Assembly: GCA_003697105.1 (NCBI GenBank)
Contig: RFFQ01000099.1
Span: 1 to 31,850 of the forward strand
Reading direction: 5' to 3'
Source of the DNA: Gemmatimonadota bacterium
Lineage (GTDB): Bacteria; 4572-55; J002
DNA length: 31,850 nt
Shown here: positions 6,382 through 31,831 of the stretch, in pieces
Layout: each line of letters begins with the position of its first letter
Position numbering within the stretch: the first letter of the stretch is position 1
Translations under genes and position numbers: made by a program
Notes under the pieces: generated by a model
What the model was told of the DNA's origin: nothing
Databases searched by the model: none
Seen by the model: the letters and a program-made list of their open reading frames with translations, nothing else

Positions 6382-6416
6382 CCCTAATCCCTGCTTCCTA
6401 ACCCCTGATCCCTTCA
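6382..6416. repeat. Degenerate CCCTNAT heptamer repeat
   Basis: Five 7-base units in tandem: CCCTAAT, CCCTGCT, TCCTAAC, CCCTGAT and CCCTTCA. The last unit overlaps the stop codon of the minus-strand acyl-CoA synthetase gene. The heptamer period differs from the 8-9 base period of the adjoining GAGTT array, so the two are recorded separately. Confidence 0.65.
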
Positions 6417-9116
6417 AATGAGTTCTATTGTCGCTTTGACGACGTCCTCATCAAAATCGTGGCGCAATGTGAACCCCACTTTTTTGCTAACGATTTGCAT
6501 ACCCCGATTTTCCGGCAGAATGTCTGCCACAATGCGGGTTAATCCTTCTGCCCGGCCAATTTCCACTAACTTGCGGAGTAAATGGGTGCCTAATCCCGAC
6601 CGTTGGGCGTGATCACTAATGATAATGGCATATTCTCCCTCGGTAGTGCCAGTCCGTTTACTAAGTCGCCCGACACCAATAATTTTGTTCTCGTGTACGG
6701 CGACCAATGCCATTTCGCGGTCATAATCGATGAAACACAGCCGGGAAAGGCGTTCGTGTGCTACGCGTTGTTCCAATCCAAGGGGATGAAAATAGCGGAA
6801 GTAGATGCTTTCATCAGACAGCGTGCGATGAAAATCAACCAGCAACGGTTCATCTTCTGGACGAATGGGGCGGATCAATACATCTAACCCATTTTTTGTT
6901 GTCCAATGTTCCATCAGATGGCTGGGATAAGGGCGGATTGCCGGACGCGGTAGTTCATCATCTTGGACCTGAGGTGGATGGAGTACCATCCGCGCATCGA
7001 GAGCAACAATGCCTTGCGGGGAAATCTGTAATGGGTTGATGTCAATAGCTCGAATACGGGGCTGATCGAGTACAAACTGGCTGAAACGCACCAGTATTCC
7101 TTCCAGTTCTGCGGCACGTTTGGTACCGTGGGGGAGTTTTTTCAGGATGTTGTAAATCTGAGTTTGTTCCATCATCCGCCGGGCGAGTGTGGAGTTTAGA
7201 GGGGGTAATCCAACCGCCCGGTCGTGGTATGCCTCTACCAACCGCCCTCCTAACCCGAAGAGTAATGCCGGTCCGAATTGGAGATCGATGTCACTGCCAA
7301 TAATTAATTCAATACCGCACGTGCGCACCATGGGTTGTACCGTTACGCCCGCAAAATGACCACTCCCCAGTTGGCGGGTAACTGTTGTTTCAATTTGCCG
7401 GTAAGCCCGGCGTACTTCCGCTTCATTCGGAATGCCAAGAATGACACCGCCGATATCGGCTTTGTGAGTGATGGTTTGAGAATACAGTTTAAGCACCACC
7501 GGGAAACCGATCTGGTTTGCCCATCTAACGGCTTCGGTTTCATTTTGGGCAAGATAGGTCTCGACGGTTTGGATGCCGTATTCATTTAAAATCTGTTTAG
7601 ATTCCACTTCCGTCAGCATACAACGGTCTTGTGTCAGGGCATTCTCGATAATCGTGCGGATTTTCATTTCGTCGGGGGGGTGATCCGCATCATAATTGTG
7701 GGGGAGGGGGGTTTCGTAAATCCCTTTTAAGGTATAGGCGTAGCGCCACATGTAGTTAAATATCCGGGTGGCGGTATCGGGAAAGGGAACGGTGGGGATG
7801 CCGGCATCATTTAGCATGGTTTTACAGGCATGGATTTCCCTACCGCCCATTGTACTGGTCAACACCGGTTTATCGGAATGGGGGAGGATTTGCACCAATT
7901 TTTGGGCGATTGCCGCCGGATCACTCGTTGCTTGGGGGGTAATGATTGTTAGCAGTCCATCAACTTGATCGTCGTTTAAGAGTGGAATGAGCGTGTTCGC
8001 GTACTGTTCTGGAGTAGCGTCGTTCATCATATCTACAGGGTTTTGCTGGCGCCAGTTGGGGGAAAGAACCCGGTTCAGATGCTCGATGGTTTCAGGGCTA
8101 AACTCGGCTAATTGTCCACCTTCCCGGATGAGTGAATCGGTTGCCAAGACTGCCGGACCGCCAGCATTGGTGATGATGGCAAGCCGGTTGCCTTGTGGGA
8201 TGGGCTGTTTGGAGAGTACCTCTGCTAAGGCAAAAAGGTCTTCCACGCTATCCACGCGCAACACACCTGTACGTCGGAAAGCGGCGCTCAAAACCTCATC
8301 ACTGGCTAAAATAGCGCCGGTATGGGCGGTGGCGAGTCGTCCGGCATCACTGGTTCGTCCGGCTTTAATCACAATAATGGGTTTGGAGAGTGCCACTTCC
8401 CGCGCGGCAGAGAGAAATAAGCGGGCATCACCGATGGATTCCATATAGAGTAAAATACTGTTCGTGTGATGATCATCACCAAAATAACCGATCAGGTCAC
8501 CCCAATTGATGTCCGCCATCGTCCCAATTGAGACAAAGGCACTGAAACCGGCATTTTCCTGTAAACTCCAATCCAAAATGGCATTGCAAATTGCCCCACT
8601 TTGACTGATAAATGCGACGCTACCCGGTTTTGCCATCTGGTGAGTTATGGAGGCATTCAATCTACTGTGGGGACGCATTAGCCCGATGCAGTTGGGCCCG
8701 ATCACCCGGATGCCATTTTGACGGGCGCGGCGGAGCACTTCCGCTTCCCGTTGCGCGCCCGTTTCGCCAGATTCCCGGAAGCCGCTGGAGATGATGATGG
8801 CGCCTTTAACACCATTTGCGCCGCATTGGTCGATCACCGGGGGTACCCGTTCTGCCCGCACCGCGATCACCGCAAGATCGATGCTTTCCGGAATCGCATC
8901 CACTTCAGGATATGCTCGGATACCAAGGACACTTTTACGCGTCGGATGGACGGGAAAGACGGTTCCCCCGAACGGGTTACGGATTAGATTCCACAGCAGG
9001 AGACGGCCGACACTGTTCTCCCGATCTGTCGCACCGATCACAGCAACCGTCCGCGGGGCAAAAATGGCGTCGAGTGACCGCCGGTCATAACGGTTTTTCG
9101 TGGTAACAGGTGGCAT
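6414..9116 (-). CDS. ADP-forming acyl-CoA synthetase fused to GNAT acetyltransferase
   Basis: A 900-residue fusion. Residues about 14-150 are a CoA-binding Rossmann domain ([15 protein letters not shown]), 155-460 are succinyl-CoA-ligase-like domains, 486-710 an ATP-grasp domain (FPVVLK around 538-543), and 742-900 a GNAT domain with acetyl-CoA loop [10 protein letters not shown] (838-847) and Glu828 in GEYAII. The acyl-CoA synthetase half would interconvert acetyl-CoA plus ADP and phosphate with acetate plus ATP; His265 in ATAHTGA matches the phosphorylated His of that family. The GNAT half resembles Pat-type protein lysine acetyltransferases, in which an NDP-forming synthetase-like domain precedes GNAT. 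The His is retained here, so both catalytic and regulatory roles remain possible. The ATG follows a GGAGG about ten bases upstream. It lies 75 bases downstream of the PLP enzyme gene on the same strand. Confidence 0.9.
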
Positions 9117-26715: not shown

Positions 26716-26744
26716 AATATAGTATTTTCAGTGACTTTTGTCAA
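26716..26744 (-). promoter_or_regulatory. Sigma70-type promoter directed at gyrA
   Basis: Read on the minus strand, TTGACA (26744-26739), a 17-base spacer and TATATT (26721-26716) form a near-consensus promoter. The -35 lies inside the last codons of the antiporter-ATPase gene. Transcription would start near 26709, giving a leader of about 86 bases that holds the terminator-like hairpin. Confidence 0.78.
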
Positions 26745-29700
26745 GGGGAATGTCGGGTTTGGCTGGGTATGATAAGATGTTTAATTGCTGTAATTTACGG
26801 ATGATCTGCCGGTACACAATTGGGTTGAGGCTATAACCATGTGCCGGTGGGGTGGGTTGGTAAATCAAATAATGATGGTGAAGTTCTGCCAGTAATGCGG
26901 TCGCTTCTGTCCGATCAATGGCAAAGATTTCGGCAAGTTCTTCGACTTGAAGGGTGCCGTGTTGGGCGATAGCGCCCAGCGTCAATAACGGCTCCCAGTC
27001 CAATTGTTCCAAAATGGGGACTTGGGGCATCACCGGTTCGACCGCGCGAAGTCGATTCTCATCGGTCTCATCATTGGTGATCGCGTGTAACCAAACGTAG
27101 AGGGCGATAAAAATGTTTCCGTCTGCAATATCGGCTAACCGGTTAAAAAATTGTATCTTTTTCTGTTCTTCGCTTTCGGTGGGGGAGACCGATTTTTCCC
27201 TGAATTTCCACCATGAGGGTGCGGGTGCGGTTTCGGGAGATGTGAACTCCAAGTGTTTACCACTGATGGTATGCCGAACTTCTATTGCCCGGCGGATATC
27301 CGTCGCCGAGAGGGTATCTACAAAAATGGGTTCGTTAAAAAAAGCGGCTAATGAGCTGGCATGTTGAAGGTAATCCCATGCATAGTGATGGATACTGGTA
27401 ATCCAAAGCACGTGTGATTGGGTCTCCTGCACAAGGTGCAAAAACGAATTTAAGACCGCGAATCCACCAATCTTCTTCAGATATAGCTTGTGCAGATGTT
27501 CGACGACAAACACCTGCTGTCCGCGCAATTTTAGCAGATGGGTGCGGATAGTTTCCAGTGTGGGGGCATCCGTGGGGGCTATCTCCAATGCCTGTGCCAG
27601 ATGTGCCGCTAGCTCCCGTTCGGAGCGAACCGTCTCTGTAAAAATGACCTGCCGGTGTGTCCAACCGGTAAAATGCGTTTTTAAGGCGATATTGATCAAA
27701 CTGGTTTTGCCACTTCCTTTTTCCCCTACAATGGCGATGTTGACGGGTGCGCCGTTGAGCCAATGCTGTTGGAGTAATTGAATCGTTGCTAACTCAGATT
27801 CCCGCCCTATCAGAAAATCCTCTATTTCCAGCGGCTTAAAGCTGAACAGGCGTTGGTAAATAAAGGATAGGTGTTGGGTCTGCGCCACATTTAAGTGGTG
27901 TGGGTGGATGTGCTGAATTTCACGGAGCCGCTGTTCGATCCGCTGGTGCTGTAGCTCGGTGGCTGAGACCGGTGCCGGCGGGTGCCCGTACCGGGTTTCC
28001 CACCAGTTTTCCAGACGTTCCCGCTGCCGGTTTAACGCACGGGTGGTGATCCACATCCATTGACGAAAGTTTTGATCCTCCGGTATCAAAACGGTACCTT
28101 GTTTGGAACCAAATTGGGTCAACTTCTCACCTAAACGCCGTACACTATATGCCGCTTTCTGGATGATGTTTTCCGCCAATTGATCGTTGAACGCATCCAC
28201 TTCCTCGATCAATTCGTCCAAGCGGCTAATGACCGCTTTGATGCCCCCGATTGCCAATTTTTGGACATGCTGAATTGCTTCCCGTGCCGTAAGGGTGCCC
28301 TCGGGTTGCGGGTCTGAGGTGAACTGGGACGTTTCGCGGAGAAGATCGCCGAAATCGATTTCGGCATCATCCGGTAAAGCGGCAAATTCTTCTATGGCAG
28401 CGCCCAAATTAAATTCGATCACGCGCGTTGCTTCTACCACCATCTGGCTGATTTTCTCGGCTTCTTCCCGAATCTGGGCGCTAACATCCCCTAAACTTCG
28501 GGTAAATTCTATCTCCAAAAAGGAGCGCACCGTCTCCCGCAAGGGTACGTATTGCACGACGACCGTATCCGGTAAGGTGCGTTCATTGAGATCAAAGTAA
28601 TGGGAATCCACTACCGGATAGGCGTCTGGGCTTTTACCGGATAGCTCGTGAAACCGGCGAAGCATAATGTCCACAAGCGATTCGAGCCGGGTGGTTGTTG
28701 GGATGTTGGCAATTTTTTGGACTGTCCGGTGTTGCAATAAATCCAGCAATTCGTCGCGTTCCGCTTGAACGGTATGCATCCAGTGGTGGCGATCAATGGT
28801 GTATGCTTTGACAATTGCTTCCATACTGGTTTGGCAGTGCTGTTTGGCATCCATCAGGAATTGCTTGAATTGGGAACTGGTGTTGCGCCGGATGTTGAAG
28901 TTGGTTTCATCGACGATGTTCCGAACTCGCCCTTCGATGAGTACGATTTCCATCCGCAGGCTAAACCGCCCGCAAAATCCTTGATGGATATTGCGCCAAT
29001 TCCGAATATTTTCGGTGATTTCCGCCTTTTTACGCTCAGATTTAGCGTAAATTTGGGAGAAATTGAAACTTTTAGCCGGTCGTTCAACTGTGCCGACGAT
29101 TTCGGTCTCGCGCAAAATTTGGTTATATGTTTCGACCAATACGCGGTGTAGCTCCTCGCTAATATCGGCTTCTAATCGATCCAATTCCGTCCGGGTGAAT
29201 TCGTATGTTTCGCGCAGTTCTTTGCGTAGATTTTCCAAATAGGTTTTGAGGTCTTCGGCTACCAGAGTCTCGCCGGTAATGCCATCCAGATACAGCAGGA
29301 GTGCTTGATTGCTGGCAATCATTTCCTCAAATATAATCTGGCTTTTTTGGAGCATAAAGAGCCGCTGGTAGCCGATCAAATTCATCAAAAAGAGGAATTT
29401 TTCTGGGAAGTCACGGCTCATCACGAATTTAATGACCGGCTGTAAAGGGACGATATGGGTAAATTGATAGTTCGCGTTGAACAGGCGGTATAGCTCTCGC
29501 CGGATTCGTTTTAGTGCCTTTAGTACCCGGATTTTCGGCGAATCTCCCGGCTGCGGGGTAAAGCGTGCCTCATTTTGGTTTACCAGATAGGTTTTGCCCA
29601 GTTCCGAGAGGGTATCAATATCGTTTAGTAAATTTCGAGCAAATCGTTCGAGTGATTCCGTGTCCGTGTACTCCCGGCGGATGGTATCTATCTCTTTAAT

Positions 29701-31362
29701 GAAACGATAGGTATAATCGATGCGGTTAGCGCGGATAGCTTCTTTAAGCTGACCCACAGTTTGTTCATCCCCACTGAACACGCTACCGAGTTTTAACAGG
29801 CTGGCGGCACTCCACTTATGCAATTTTTCCACTGCCGCTTTTTGCTCACTGGTACGGGGATGCAAGAGATGATTCCGGAAGTGATGTTCGATCTCTTGAA
29901 ATGCTTCGCGTAAATCCAGCAACGCTTCGTTCATCCGGCTGGACGATGACTGTGGTTGAGCATATTCCACCCGTGTTACCGGTTCCGCCTCCGGAGCGGT
30001 GGGCTCCGCAACGATACGGCTGGGTTCATCCTGAATGATGCTGCGCCGTTCCCGGGTCTCACCTACATGGGGGAGCAAGCCACGAAACAGAATCCCGCCA
30101 CCGGTTAGATTGAGTAAAATGCCGGACATCCCAATTGGCAGGATCAAGTGCTGCAATTGGGGCATATCTGGAAGCCATGCCATTGCCAAAACCAGAATAA
30201 ATTCCCCCTGTGGCAGAAATCCTGCCCACGCATTGCGGCGGAATGCCGCCGATTTTTTTAAGAGCCTTGCCGCTAAATAACCTCCGGTGAAAATGGCACA
30301 TACCCGAATCAGAATGATCAGAATTGAAAGTAGCAATACGCTGTTGAACGGGACCGCCGAAAGTTCCAACTGGTGTGCCAGAAGTACGAAAAACATCAAG
30401 TATAGGATAGGTAACGCCGGTTTGAGTTGATCAATGAGGGCTTGCTTGCCGGTGTTGACCAGCACCACTCCGGCAACGAACGCCGAGAGGATCGGGTCGA
30501 ATTGGAAAAACGGAATGTAATGATGGACGTAAATTGCGTGCAACGCGAGGGCGAGTATCCCGCCGGTAAGGACAATTAGGGTCTCTTGCGGGAAATAACG
30601 CTCAATAAACATCACCCCTAGCCCGAATAGCAGTCCCGTGAGGATGGACATGCCAATCTGCCCGAAAAGTGCCCCGGTCTGAAATGGGATGCCAAAGGGT
30701 TCGCCAGAGAATAGATAAAATAGACCTCCCATTATTAGGATTGCCGCCACATTTTTGAGGACTACTGCTTGTAGAATTAGATCGGTGGCGGTGCCTTCGG
30801 ATTCACTCTCGTGGATAATGGCGTGTGTGGTACTAGGTGAGGTCGTGCTCATTAGCACCGCACCAAATGCCGCGCCAACATAGATTATACCGGAAGTCCG
30901 AATTCCAGCGGGGATCAACGCGGGAAAGAAGGTTCCACACAACATGATTACCCCGAAAACCGCACCCATTGTCAGAATCAGCGGAAACAGCATCCATAAC
31001 AGACTTTCCACTTGAAGGCGCTGGCGAAAATGAAAATAACGGCTGATGTAAAGGATGATTAGAGCCAGGCAGGTATCGTACAAAAAGTGGAGGGGTTGGA
31101 GAAACAACGCCGATTGCCAGTTGGAGGGCACACCTAGCCACTGCCAGAGTATTGAAGTGGTTAATAACCCAACCCCAAACCCGGCAACGCTGGCCGGTAT
31201 ATCAATACGCTGTGCCAACCGCCCGAGGACATACGCCGTAAGAAAAACACCTCCCAAGCCCAAAATAGAGATCGCCCACATCGCTATTACCGGCTGTTGC
31301 CATAAATAGGGCAGTAGGATAATCAAGCTGACAAAGAGGAGGATGAGAATACGTTTGTACAT
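26728..31362 (-). CDS. Cation/proton antiporter (CPA2-like) fused to a long helical region and a P-loop ATPase
   Basis: A 1544-residue single open frame. Residues 1-430 hold about 13 membrane helices with CPA2/Kef-like features, including [20 protein letters not shown] (164-183). At the helix usually carrying a proton-binding Asp (QDIAAI in KefC) it reads LKNVAAI, with Asn204. A Glu/Pro-rich linker (about 432-478) leads to a mostly helical, charged cytoplasmic region (about 478-1170) with no domain I recognise. Residues 1183-1400 form an AAA/STAND-like ATPase: entry motif LIGRESEL, Walker [10 protein letters not shown] (1213-1221), and a Walker-B-like [10 protein letters not shown] (1284-1293) with Glu-His instead of Asp-Glu. 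Residues 1450-1525 look like a winged helix. No TrkA-N domain was seen. It follows a small unknown gene after four bases, with no clear ribosome-binding site, suggesting coupling. Function is unknown; ATPase-controlled ion flux is an inference. Confidence 0.85.
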
Positions 31363-31366
31363 GGGT

Positions 31367-31831
31367 CTAATGCGAGTGTCCCGTTATTTCATGGAACATC
31401 TCCAAAGCGTGTTGGTACTCCGCTAAATTCATAATCCACAGGCTGATGGTGGCTTTTCCCCAGTTTGTGTTGGCGTTATCAAAATCAGTAACCAACCTGT
31501 CTAGGATATCTTCGGGGAGTTGGGGTGGGTTTTCTAAGCTCTGCACAAGTGCCTTCGGATTTATTGGTTGGGACACTTCCAGATAGTCTAGAAATGCCAT
31601 CGTCCATGCCGTAAAAATCTTGGGGTCCTCAACCTGGTATTTCTGTTTTAGCCAGTTTGTGACATTATTGACCTGAGTTAGCTCCAAAAAGCTCAAACTC
31701 TCGAGGTTTTGGGTTAGTTTCGGCATATATTTATGTAATGATTCCATTACCTCCGGCGGGATGGACTGTGCGGTGCGTTTATGGAAATTGTTTAGCAAGG
31801 CGTTAATCTGTTCCTGTGTGATTTTTTTCAC
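31367..31831 (-). CDS. Small all-helical protein of unknown function, upstream of antiporter-ATPase
   Basis: A 154-residue protein I do not recognise. It has no signal peptide and no membrane helix and appears fully helical, with a hydrophilic composition (LNNFHKRTAQSIPPEVMESL near the start, ALEMFHEITGHSH at the end). The start is chosen as GTG 31831, because AAGGAG (31845-31840) lies eight bases upstream; a TTG at 31837 would be only two bases from that site. It ends four bases before the antiporter-ATPase start on the same strand, so the two are probably made together and may interact. The gene begins 19 bases from the window edge, so its promoter and any earlier operon members are not visible. 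Confidence 0.7.
   Translation of the reverse strand: MKKITQEQINALLNNFHKRTAQSIPPEVMESLHKYMPKLTQNLESLSFLELTQVNNVTNWLKQKYQVEDPKIFTAWTMAFLDYLEVSQPINPKALVQSLENPPQLPEDILDRLVTDFDNANTNWGKATISLWIMNLAEYQHALEMFHEITGHSH

Follow-up and report, generated by a model that had tools for sequence, protein, structure and literature searches.

A divergent antiporter-like member of a widespread ATPase family encoded beside MscS-type channel genes

The window analysed here, a stretch of 31,850 bases that makes up an entire contig of a 4.18 Mb genome, carries a gene, P0001, in which an antiporter-like membrane domain is joined to a large helical and ATPase-bearing module. Our main reading, to which we give a probability of roughly 0.58, is that P0001 belongs, as a divergent copy, to a widespread family of ATPases that serve transporters and MscS channels, and that the family acts in ATP-dependent control of ions or turgor. 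To maintain ion or osmotic homeostasis, the ATPase would adjust both the transporter and the MscS channel. The architecture, its recurrence, the genetic partnership, the co-divergence and the state of the motifs are observed; the physical complex, the direction of control and the osmotic role are what we infer. The features of the locus are listed below (window positions; residues are those of P0001 unless stated).

26728..31362, minus strand: whole fusion gene P0001, 1544 aa, antiporter-like domain, helical modules, ATPase and winged helix
31367..31831, minus strand: upstream gene, 154 aa, GTG start with AAGGAG upstream, 4 bp before P0001
30073..31362, minus strand: membrane domain of the CPA (Na+/H+ antiporter) superfamily, residues 1-430, 10 hydrophobic segments
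30751..30753, minus strand: Asn204 (codon AAT) at the antiporter TM5 aspartate position
30304..30306, minus strand: Arg353, invariant in 26/26 aligned antiporters
29098..29955, minus strand: first helical module, residues 470-755 (model, profile comparison)
28093..29097, minus strand: second helical module, residues 756-1090, including an 86-residue helix
27043..27885, minus strand: AAA+/STAND-like P-loop ATPase domain, residues 1160-1440 (Pfam, structure match)
27703..27726, minus strand: Walker A GEKGSGKT, residues 1213-1220, intact
27499..27501, minus strand: Glu1288, acid of Walker B (VVEH), with His in place of the second acid
26758..27000, minus strand: C-terminal winged helix, residues 1455-1535 (Pfam, structure match)

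An earlier note on this DNA had described one unbroken frame at 26728-31362. The frame is real, with 1544 codons from an ATG at 31362 to a stop at 26730-26728, but it lies on the minus strand; the plus-strand reading of the interval contains many stops. Because both a stand-alone module and stand-alone antiporters exist, one could suppose that an assembly error had joined two genes. Recurrence and codon statistics refute this, and its probability is negligible. The GC content at the three codon positions was.55,.38 and.57 in the first part of the gene,.58,.36 and.56 in the second, and.57,.36 and.54 in the third; it is thus even along the gene, and the same as in gyrA, which indicates that there is no seam. 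Eighteen other fusions have the same order and colinear homology, and they span residue ~440, where homologues had been suggested to be always split if the frame were artificial. Homology, recurrence and even codon statistics together confirm a genuine antiporter-helical-ATPase fusion. The gyrA gene lies downstream, after a gap of 65 bp. The 154-aa upstream gene is probably co-transcribed with P0001; no homologue of it was found in either of the two genomes of the phylum, among the neighbouring ORFs searched or in PHROGs, so its membership in the system is uncertain. The contig ends shortly upstream of the locus.

Across 84,980 species genomes, a scan that used just the ATPase domain as query yielded 32 loci. 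They belonged to Calditrichota, KSB1, Neomarinimicrobiota, Balneolota, Bacteroidota and Ignavibacteriota, and to Acidobacteriota, Myxococcota, bins labelled Pseudomonadota and one Methanoperedens archaeon. Four forms could be distinguished: a soluble, unfused form (~1000 aa), a form fused to an SLC12-type transporter (~1700 aa), a form fused to a CPA antiporter (~1500 aa), and one from Myxococcota, in which five to six hydrophobic segments lie in the middle of the protein. Sequence homology of the ATPase and winged helix, together with a colinear helical region, places P0001 in this family; with an Ignavibacteriales protein it is colinear over the full lengths, at 21% identity. The 18 other CPA-helical-ATPase fusions came from 15 genomes of the Ignavibacteriales class, from two Acidobacteriota (of the class of a Blastocatellia genome) and from one KSB1 genome. 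In the Ignavibacteriales class, 294 genomes were searched, giving 14 fusions beyond the query, one of them cut by a contig end. The same architecture recurs in several phyla with a constant partner, as the earlier note had asked to see. The existence of a stand-alone module is consistent with modular fusion.

The window's genome, one of two from its phylum in the searched set, holds three of these forms. Besides the CPA fusion it encodes a 1063-aa paralogue without a transporter (C86), with an MscS gene 8 bp after it, and a 1715-aa paralogue (C144) made of an SLC12-type cotransporter and the module; its gene shares 4 bp with an MscS-like one. Such coexistence would suit parallel ion-handling roles. 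In the other genome of the phylum, an SLC12 fusion gene has an MscS-like neighbour in divergent orientation. The transporter part of an SLC12-fused member was recognised by Pfam as AA_permease (1e-44) and SLC12 (1.6e-6). The module had been proposed as the regulatory part of a Kef-type transporter; this description is too narrow, since the module also occurs fused to SLC12 or unfused. Three different classes of ion-flux protein thus share one module. Ion or osmotic homeostasis is the simplest common denominator, because exchangers, cation-chloride cotransporters and MscS channels all handle ions or turgor.

The most constant feature of the family is its genetic partner. The ATPase gene has an MscS-family gene as its immediate neighbour in 50/50 evaluable homologous loci from about ten phyla, loci that are only partly independent, since 13 come from one class. 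Among these, 48 were called by script and two have longer overlaps; one contig that ends early was left out, and no locus other than that of the window departs from the pattern. In the multi-phylum scan alone, where loci were picked without reference to MscS, the count was 31/31. The two genes are usually within 20 bp of each other or overlapping, and Pfam recognises the MscS beta-domain in the partner (PF00924, 1e-22 and 3e-18). One annotated NCBI record, that of the Novosphingobium megaplasmid pLA3, has the same pair: an ATPase labelled just 'AAA family ATPase' and, after a 2 bp gap, a 'mechanosensitive ion channel family protein'. The constant partner that the earlier note had looked for thus exists, and it is an MscS channel; the window itself, however, lacks it. 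Among the CPA fusions, 13 loci of the Ignavibacteriales class and two of Acidobacteriota form a three-gene unit, composed of an antiporter A gene, the fusion of antiporter B with the module, and the MscS gene, usually overlapping or nearly touching. At the KSB1 CPA locus, the A gene is ~3 kb upstream. Antiporter A and B pairs without the module were also found, including in the window's genome.

The phylogenies of the two partners were then compared. In the ATPase tree, the SLC12 fusions form one clade (support 100/100) and the Myxococcota proteins another. The MscS tree mirrors it: the SLC12-linked MscS proteins form one clade (99), and 11 unlinked MscS proteins fall apart from the linked ones. 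For 39 ATPase-MscS pairs the distances correlate, with a Mantel r of 0.675 compared to at most 0.309 in 5000 permutations. Part of this correlation is due to shared species descent. This does not apply to the two paralogous ATPase-MscS pairs of the window's genome, each of which resembles its own type and not the other pair.

The ATPase part of P0001 gave Pfam matches to nSTAND1, AAA_16 and AAA_22 near the cut-off (E ~1e-5). The AlphaFold model of the ATPase and winged helix matched Orc1/Cdc6 (VIA Z ~16), and Foldseek retrieved AAA+ proteins including Apaf-1, CED-4 and NLR (E 2e-7 to 1e-4). These Pfam and model-based matches agree with the AAA/STAND-like P-loop domain and winged helix that had been read from the sequence, and indicate that P0001 has a P-loop AAA+ core followed by a winged helix. 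Walker A is retained in nearly all family members, P0001 included. The canonical Walker B pattern is hhhhD[DE]; in the family it is mostly h-E-N/D/H, with a canonical DE in one SLC12-type member (G001) and non-canonical pairs such as E-N, E-H, N-D and I-N in many. For this reason the domain may bind nucleotide, perhaps without hydrolysing it, and predicted hydrolysis is uncertain across the family.

STAND-like folds are often conflict switches and not housekeeping regulators. It is therefore worth considering a STAND-type conflict or cell-death system, in which a trigger such as phage or stress would cause an assembly like that of Apaf-1 or NLRs, opening the channel or transporter and collapsing the ion gradients. 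The likeness of the ATPase and winged helix to Apaf-1, CED-4 and NLR (Foldseek) and to nSTAND1 (Pfam) fits such a system, and pore opening would be a plausible effector. On the other hand, Orc1/Cdc6 and TnsC match the ATPase model as well as Apaf-1/NLR or better, and the neighbours are housekeeping genes (gyrA in the window, ruvB and thrS near C86). Furthermore, the tree groups track lineage or fused transporter, and an SLC12 or CPA fusion would be an odd design for a toxin. PADLOC returned nothing for P0001 at E<=0.001, and for 20 family members it gave weak matches at the level of the ATPase, the best being 1.6e-4. Death, TIR, WD40 or TPR domains were not found in the family. Having no specific PADLOC match, no phage copy and just two plasmid records, the family is unlikely to be a known defence system, and we consider a conflict role in general quite unlikely.

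Between the membrane and ATPase domains, residues ~470-1130 were predicted as well-folded helices (mean pLDDT 84, pTM 0.74) in an AlphaFold model built on a 20-sequence family alignment. This corresponds to the ~700 residues that had been noticed as an unrecognised helical region, and a Foldseek search with it gave no significant solved relative (best E 0.43). Profile comparison of its two halves with hhalign gave a homology probability of 97% in global mode and 92% in local mode, and a VPLR-like segment is common to both. The two helical modules are hence most likely a tandem duplication, as judged from their profiles. By VIA structural re-alignment, the region resembled designed bundles and, more weakly, bacterial dynamins (Z up to 13.7). 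Such similarity is what any long helical bundle would give, and does not assign the region to a known fold.

Long rod-like modules with an 86-residue helix could also belong to a structural or assembly factor, which would anchor or cluster the transporter and MscS or assist their biogenesis, without nucleotide turnover controlling flux. The often degenerate Walker B fits this explanation, as does the weak helical likeness to bacterial dynamins, although helical arrangements of common kinds give a likeness of that order. It accords less well with the conservation of Walker A in nearly all members and of the winged helix and RHxxSG segment across the family, as in regulated AAA+ switches. We judge a purely structural role unlikely, and retain the regulatory reading.

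We now turn to the membrane part of P0001, in which 10 hydrophobic segments were counted in residues 1-430 by a simple hydropathy scan. It had no direct Pfam match, but is 27% identical to two antiporter paralogues of the same genome (E 1e-19 and 1e-14), which themselves match Na_H_Exchanger (PF00999) at 3e-27 and 3e-26; two fused relatives, L221 and L113, match this family directly (9e-21 and 2e-17). By homology, residues 1-430 can therefore be assigned to the CPA superfamily, which bears out the proposed antiporter-like membrane part (E 1e-19 to a Na_H_Exchanger paralogue). No RCK/TrkA_N domain was present among the Pfam matches of P0001 at E<=1, where AAA/STAND matches were found instead, and a Kef/RCK reading was rejected.

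The ion-binding TM5 aspartate, needed for canonical exchange, is absent from P0001, where Asn204 takes its place. In 17 other fusions that could be aligned, the position is Asp in 14, Glu in two and Ser in one, and in the aligned stand-alone B-type antiporters it is Asp in 8/8. Mutating this aspartate abolishes transport in the CPA proteins studied. The antiporter A subunits of fused operons are also without it, which suggests that in complete CPA systems probably only the B subunit transports.

Could P0001 still exchange Na+ or K+ for H+ under the control of the ATPase that it carries? Its CPA fold retains a conserved TSP-like segment in TM4 as well as Arg353, and most fused relatives keep the Asp. 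Against this, Asn204 replaces that conserved residue, and both the second antiporter gene (A) and the MscS gene are missing at the locus. We consider an active exchanger improbable. Given Asn204 and the VVEH Walker B, ion exchange and ATP hydrolysis by P0001 itself are both doubtful, and so is the earlier suggestion, as applied to P0001, that flux is gated by nucleotide hydrolysis. With the exchanger site altered and no MscS gene adjacent, P0001 is most likely an antiporter-like protein that regulates or senses, perhaps together with a channel encoded elsewhere. In the ATPase tree its branch is long, at 1.49 changes per site. An unlinked MscS on another contig (C7) groups with the ATPase-linked MscS proteins, nearest to the CPA-linked ones of KSB1 and Acidobacteriota. 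This grouping is weak (83% SH-aLRT, on a long branch), and the gene has no ATPase neighbour and uninformative neighbours; it is a candidate in-trans partner of P0001, no more.

Taken together, the predicted features would fit the following mechanism. The cytosolic module, with its two tandem helical modules, ATPase and winged helix, would serve membrane ion-flux proteins. The AAA+/STAND-like domain would bind nucleotide and change conformation with nucleotide state, and the helical arm would relay this conformation to the membrane partners. Exchanger activity and MscS opening would be set jointly, resulting in ATP-dependent control of cytoplasmic ions or turgor. A more specific version, in which an AAA+/STAND motor jointly controls a CPA pair or an SLC12 protein and a dedicated MscS, the antiporter of P0001 being a non-transporting sensor, is put forward tentatively, at somewhat less than even odds.

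Transporters and mechanosensitive channels are usually seen as separate arms of osmotic control, with MscS as a passive tension valve. If the proposal is true, some MscS channels would be actively gated by an ATPase and not by membrane tension alone, and the family would represent a new class of ATP-driven ion-homeostasis machine, present in about ten phyla of bacteria and in at least one archaeon. The conserved MscS-ATPase unit would allow direct tests of whether ATP governs MscS and whether uptake and release are coordinated; cultured carriers include Gracilimonas, Rhodohalobacter, Polaribacter, Fulvivirga and Novosphingobium.

In the open-access full text that was searched, no paper describes such an operon, in keeping with the earlier impression that the layout is undescribed. 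Two large surveys of STAND proteins mention neither MscS nor antiporters (PMC7159879, PMC8195603). The components are known, and their combination is apparently undescribed; should the ATPase prove to gate MscS, this would be a new kind of system.

Several known systems share parts of it. CPA2 antiporters that carry RCK/TrkA-N domains, KefB/KefC among them, likewise join a CPA membrane domain to a regulatory part that lies C-terminal in the cytosol and binds nucleotide. In P0001, however, this part is ~1100 aa long and consists of helical modules, an AAA+/STAND-like ATPase and a winged helix instead of an RCK Rossmann domain, and in its relatives an MscS channel and a further antiporter are encoded alongside. 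The SLC12 cation-chloride cotransporters, including prokaryotic ones, are represented by a recognisable SLC12 transporter in one branch of the family, to which ~900 aa of helical and ATPase module and an adjacent MscS gene are added. MscS-family channels (MscS, MscK, YnaI) have in common with the partner the MscS beta-domain (PF00924), but the partner proteins form their own clades and are encoded with a large ATPase; to our knowledge, no such obligate ATPase partner is known for MscS. Finally, STAND NTPases and Orc1/Cdc6-like AAA+ proteins (Apaf-1, CED-4, NLRs, nSTAND1, Cdc6) likewise have an AAA+ core and a C-terminal winged helix, whereas in this family the ATPase is joined through helical modules to transporters or channels, and its Walker B is often E-N or E-H.

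An unlinked MscS gene is carried by the same genome on contig C7 (7528-8370; locus L225 of the homologue survey). It clusters with the ATPase-linked MscS genes of CPA type, and is a candidate in-trans partner of the window protein. Two genes in the window itself were also considered:

31367-31831, 154-aa gene, lying 4 bp upstream of the fusion gene
6414-9116, 900-aa frame, read from the sequence only

Relatives of the 154-aa gene were sought in the other genome of its phylum, and none was found. The 900-aa frame resembles a fusion of an ADP-forming acyl-CoA synthetase with a GNAT acetyltransferase domain at the C-terminal end.

Variant forms of the ATPase were encountered at other surveyed loci. 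In a Methanoperedens archaeon (L039, 9986-11835), a 342-aa ATPase frame is immediately followed by MscS; this short ATPase is possibly a minimal form that has no helical modules in its frame. In the Myxococcota-type form (L037, L038, L040, L042, L046 and L047), five to six hydrophobic segments separate the N-terminal part from the ATPase, and this membrane part had no Pfam family match in the two members scanned.

The motifs also vary. Among the fused antiporters, the TM5 aspartate is replaced at L127, L128 and L129 (by Glu in two, Ser in one), and the Walker B motif is degraded to LLIN in L127 and L128. This aspartate is often absent, too, from antiporter A of the stand-alone pairs, in which two distinct CPA antiporter genes, A and B, occur together (L004, 1489-4091; L114; L116; L222, 11598-14089; L224). 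Such a pair looks like a heteromeric exchanger.
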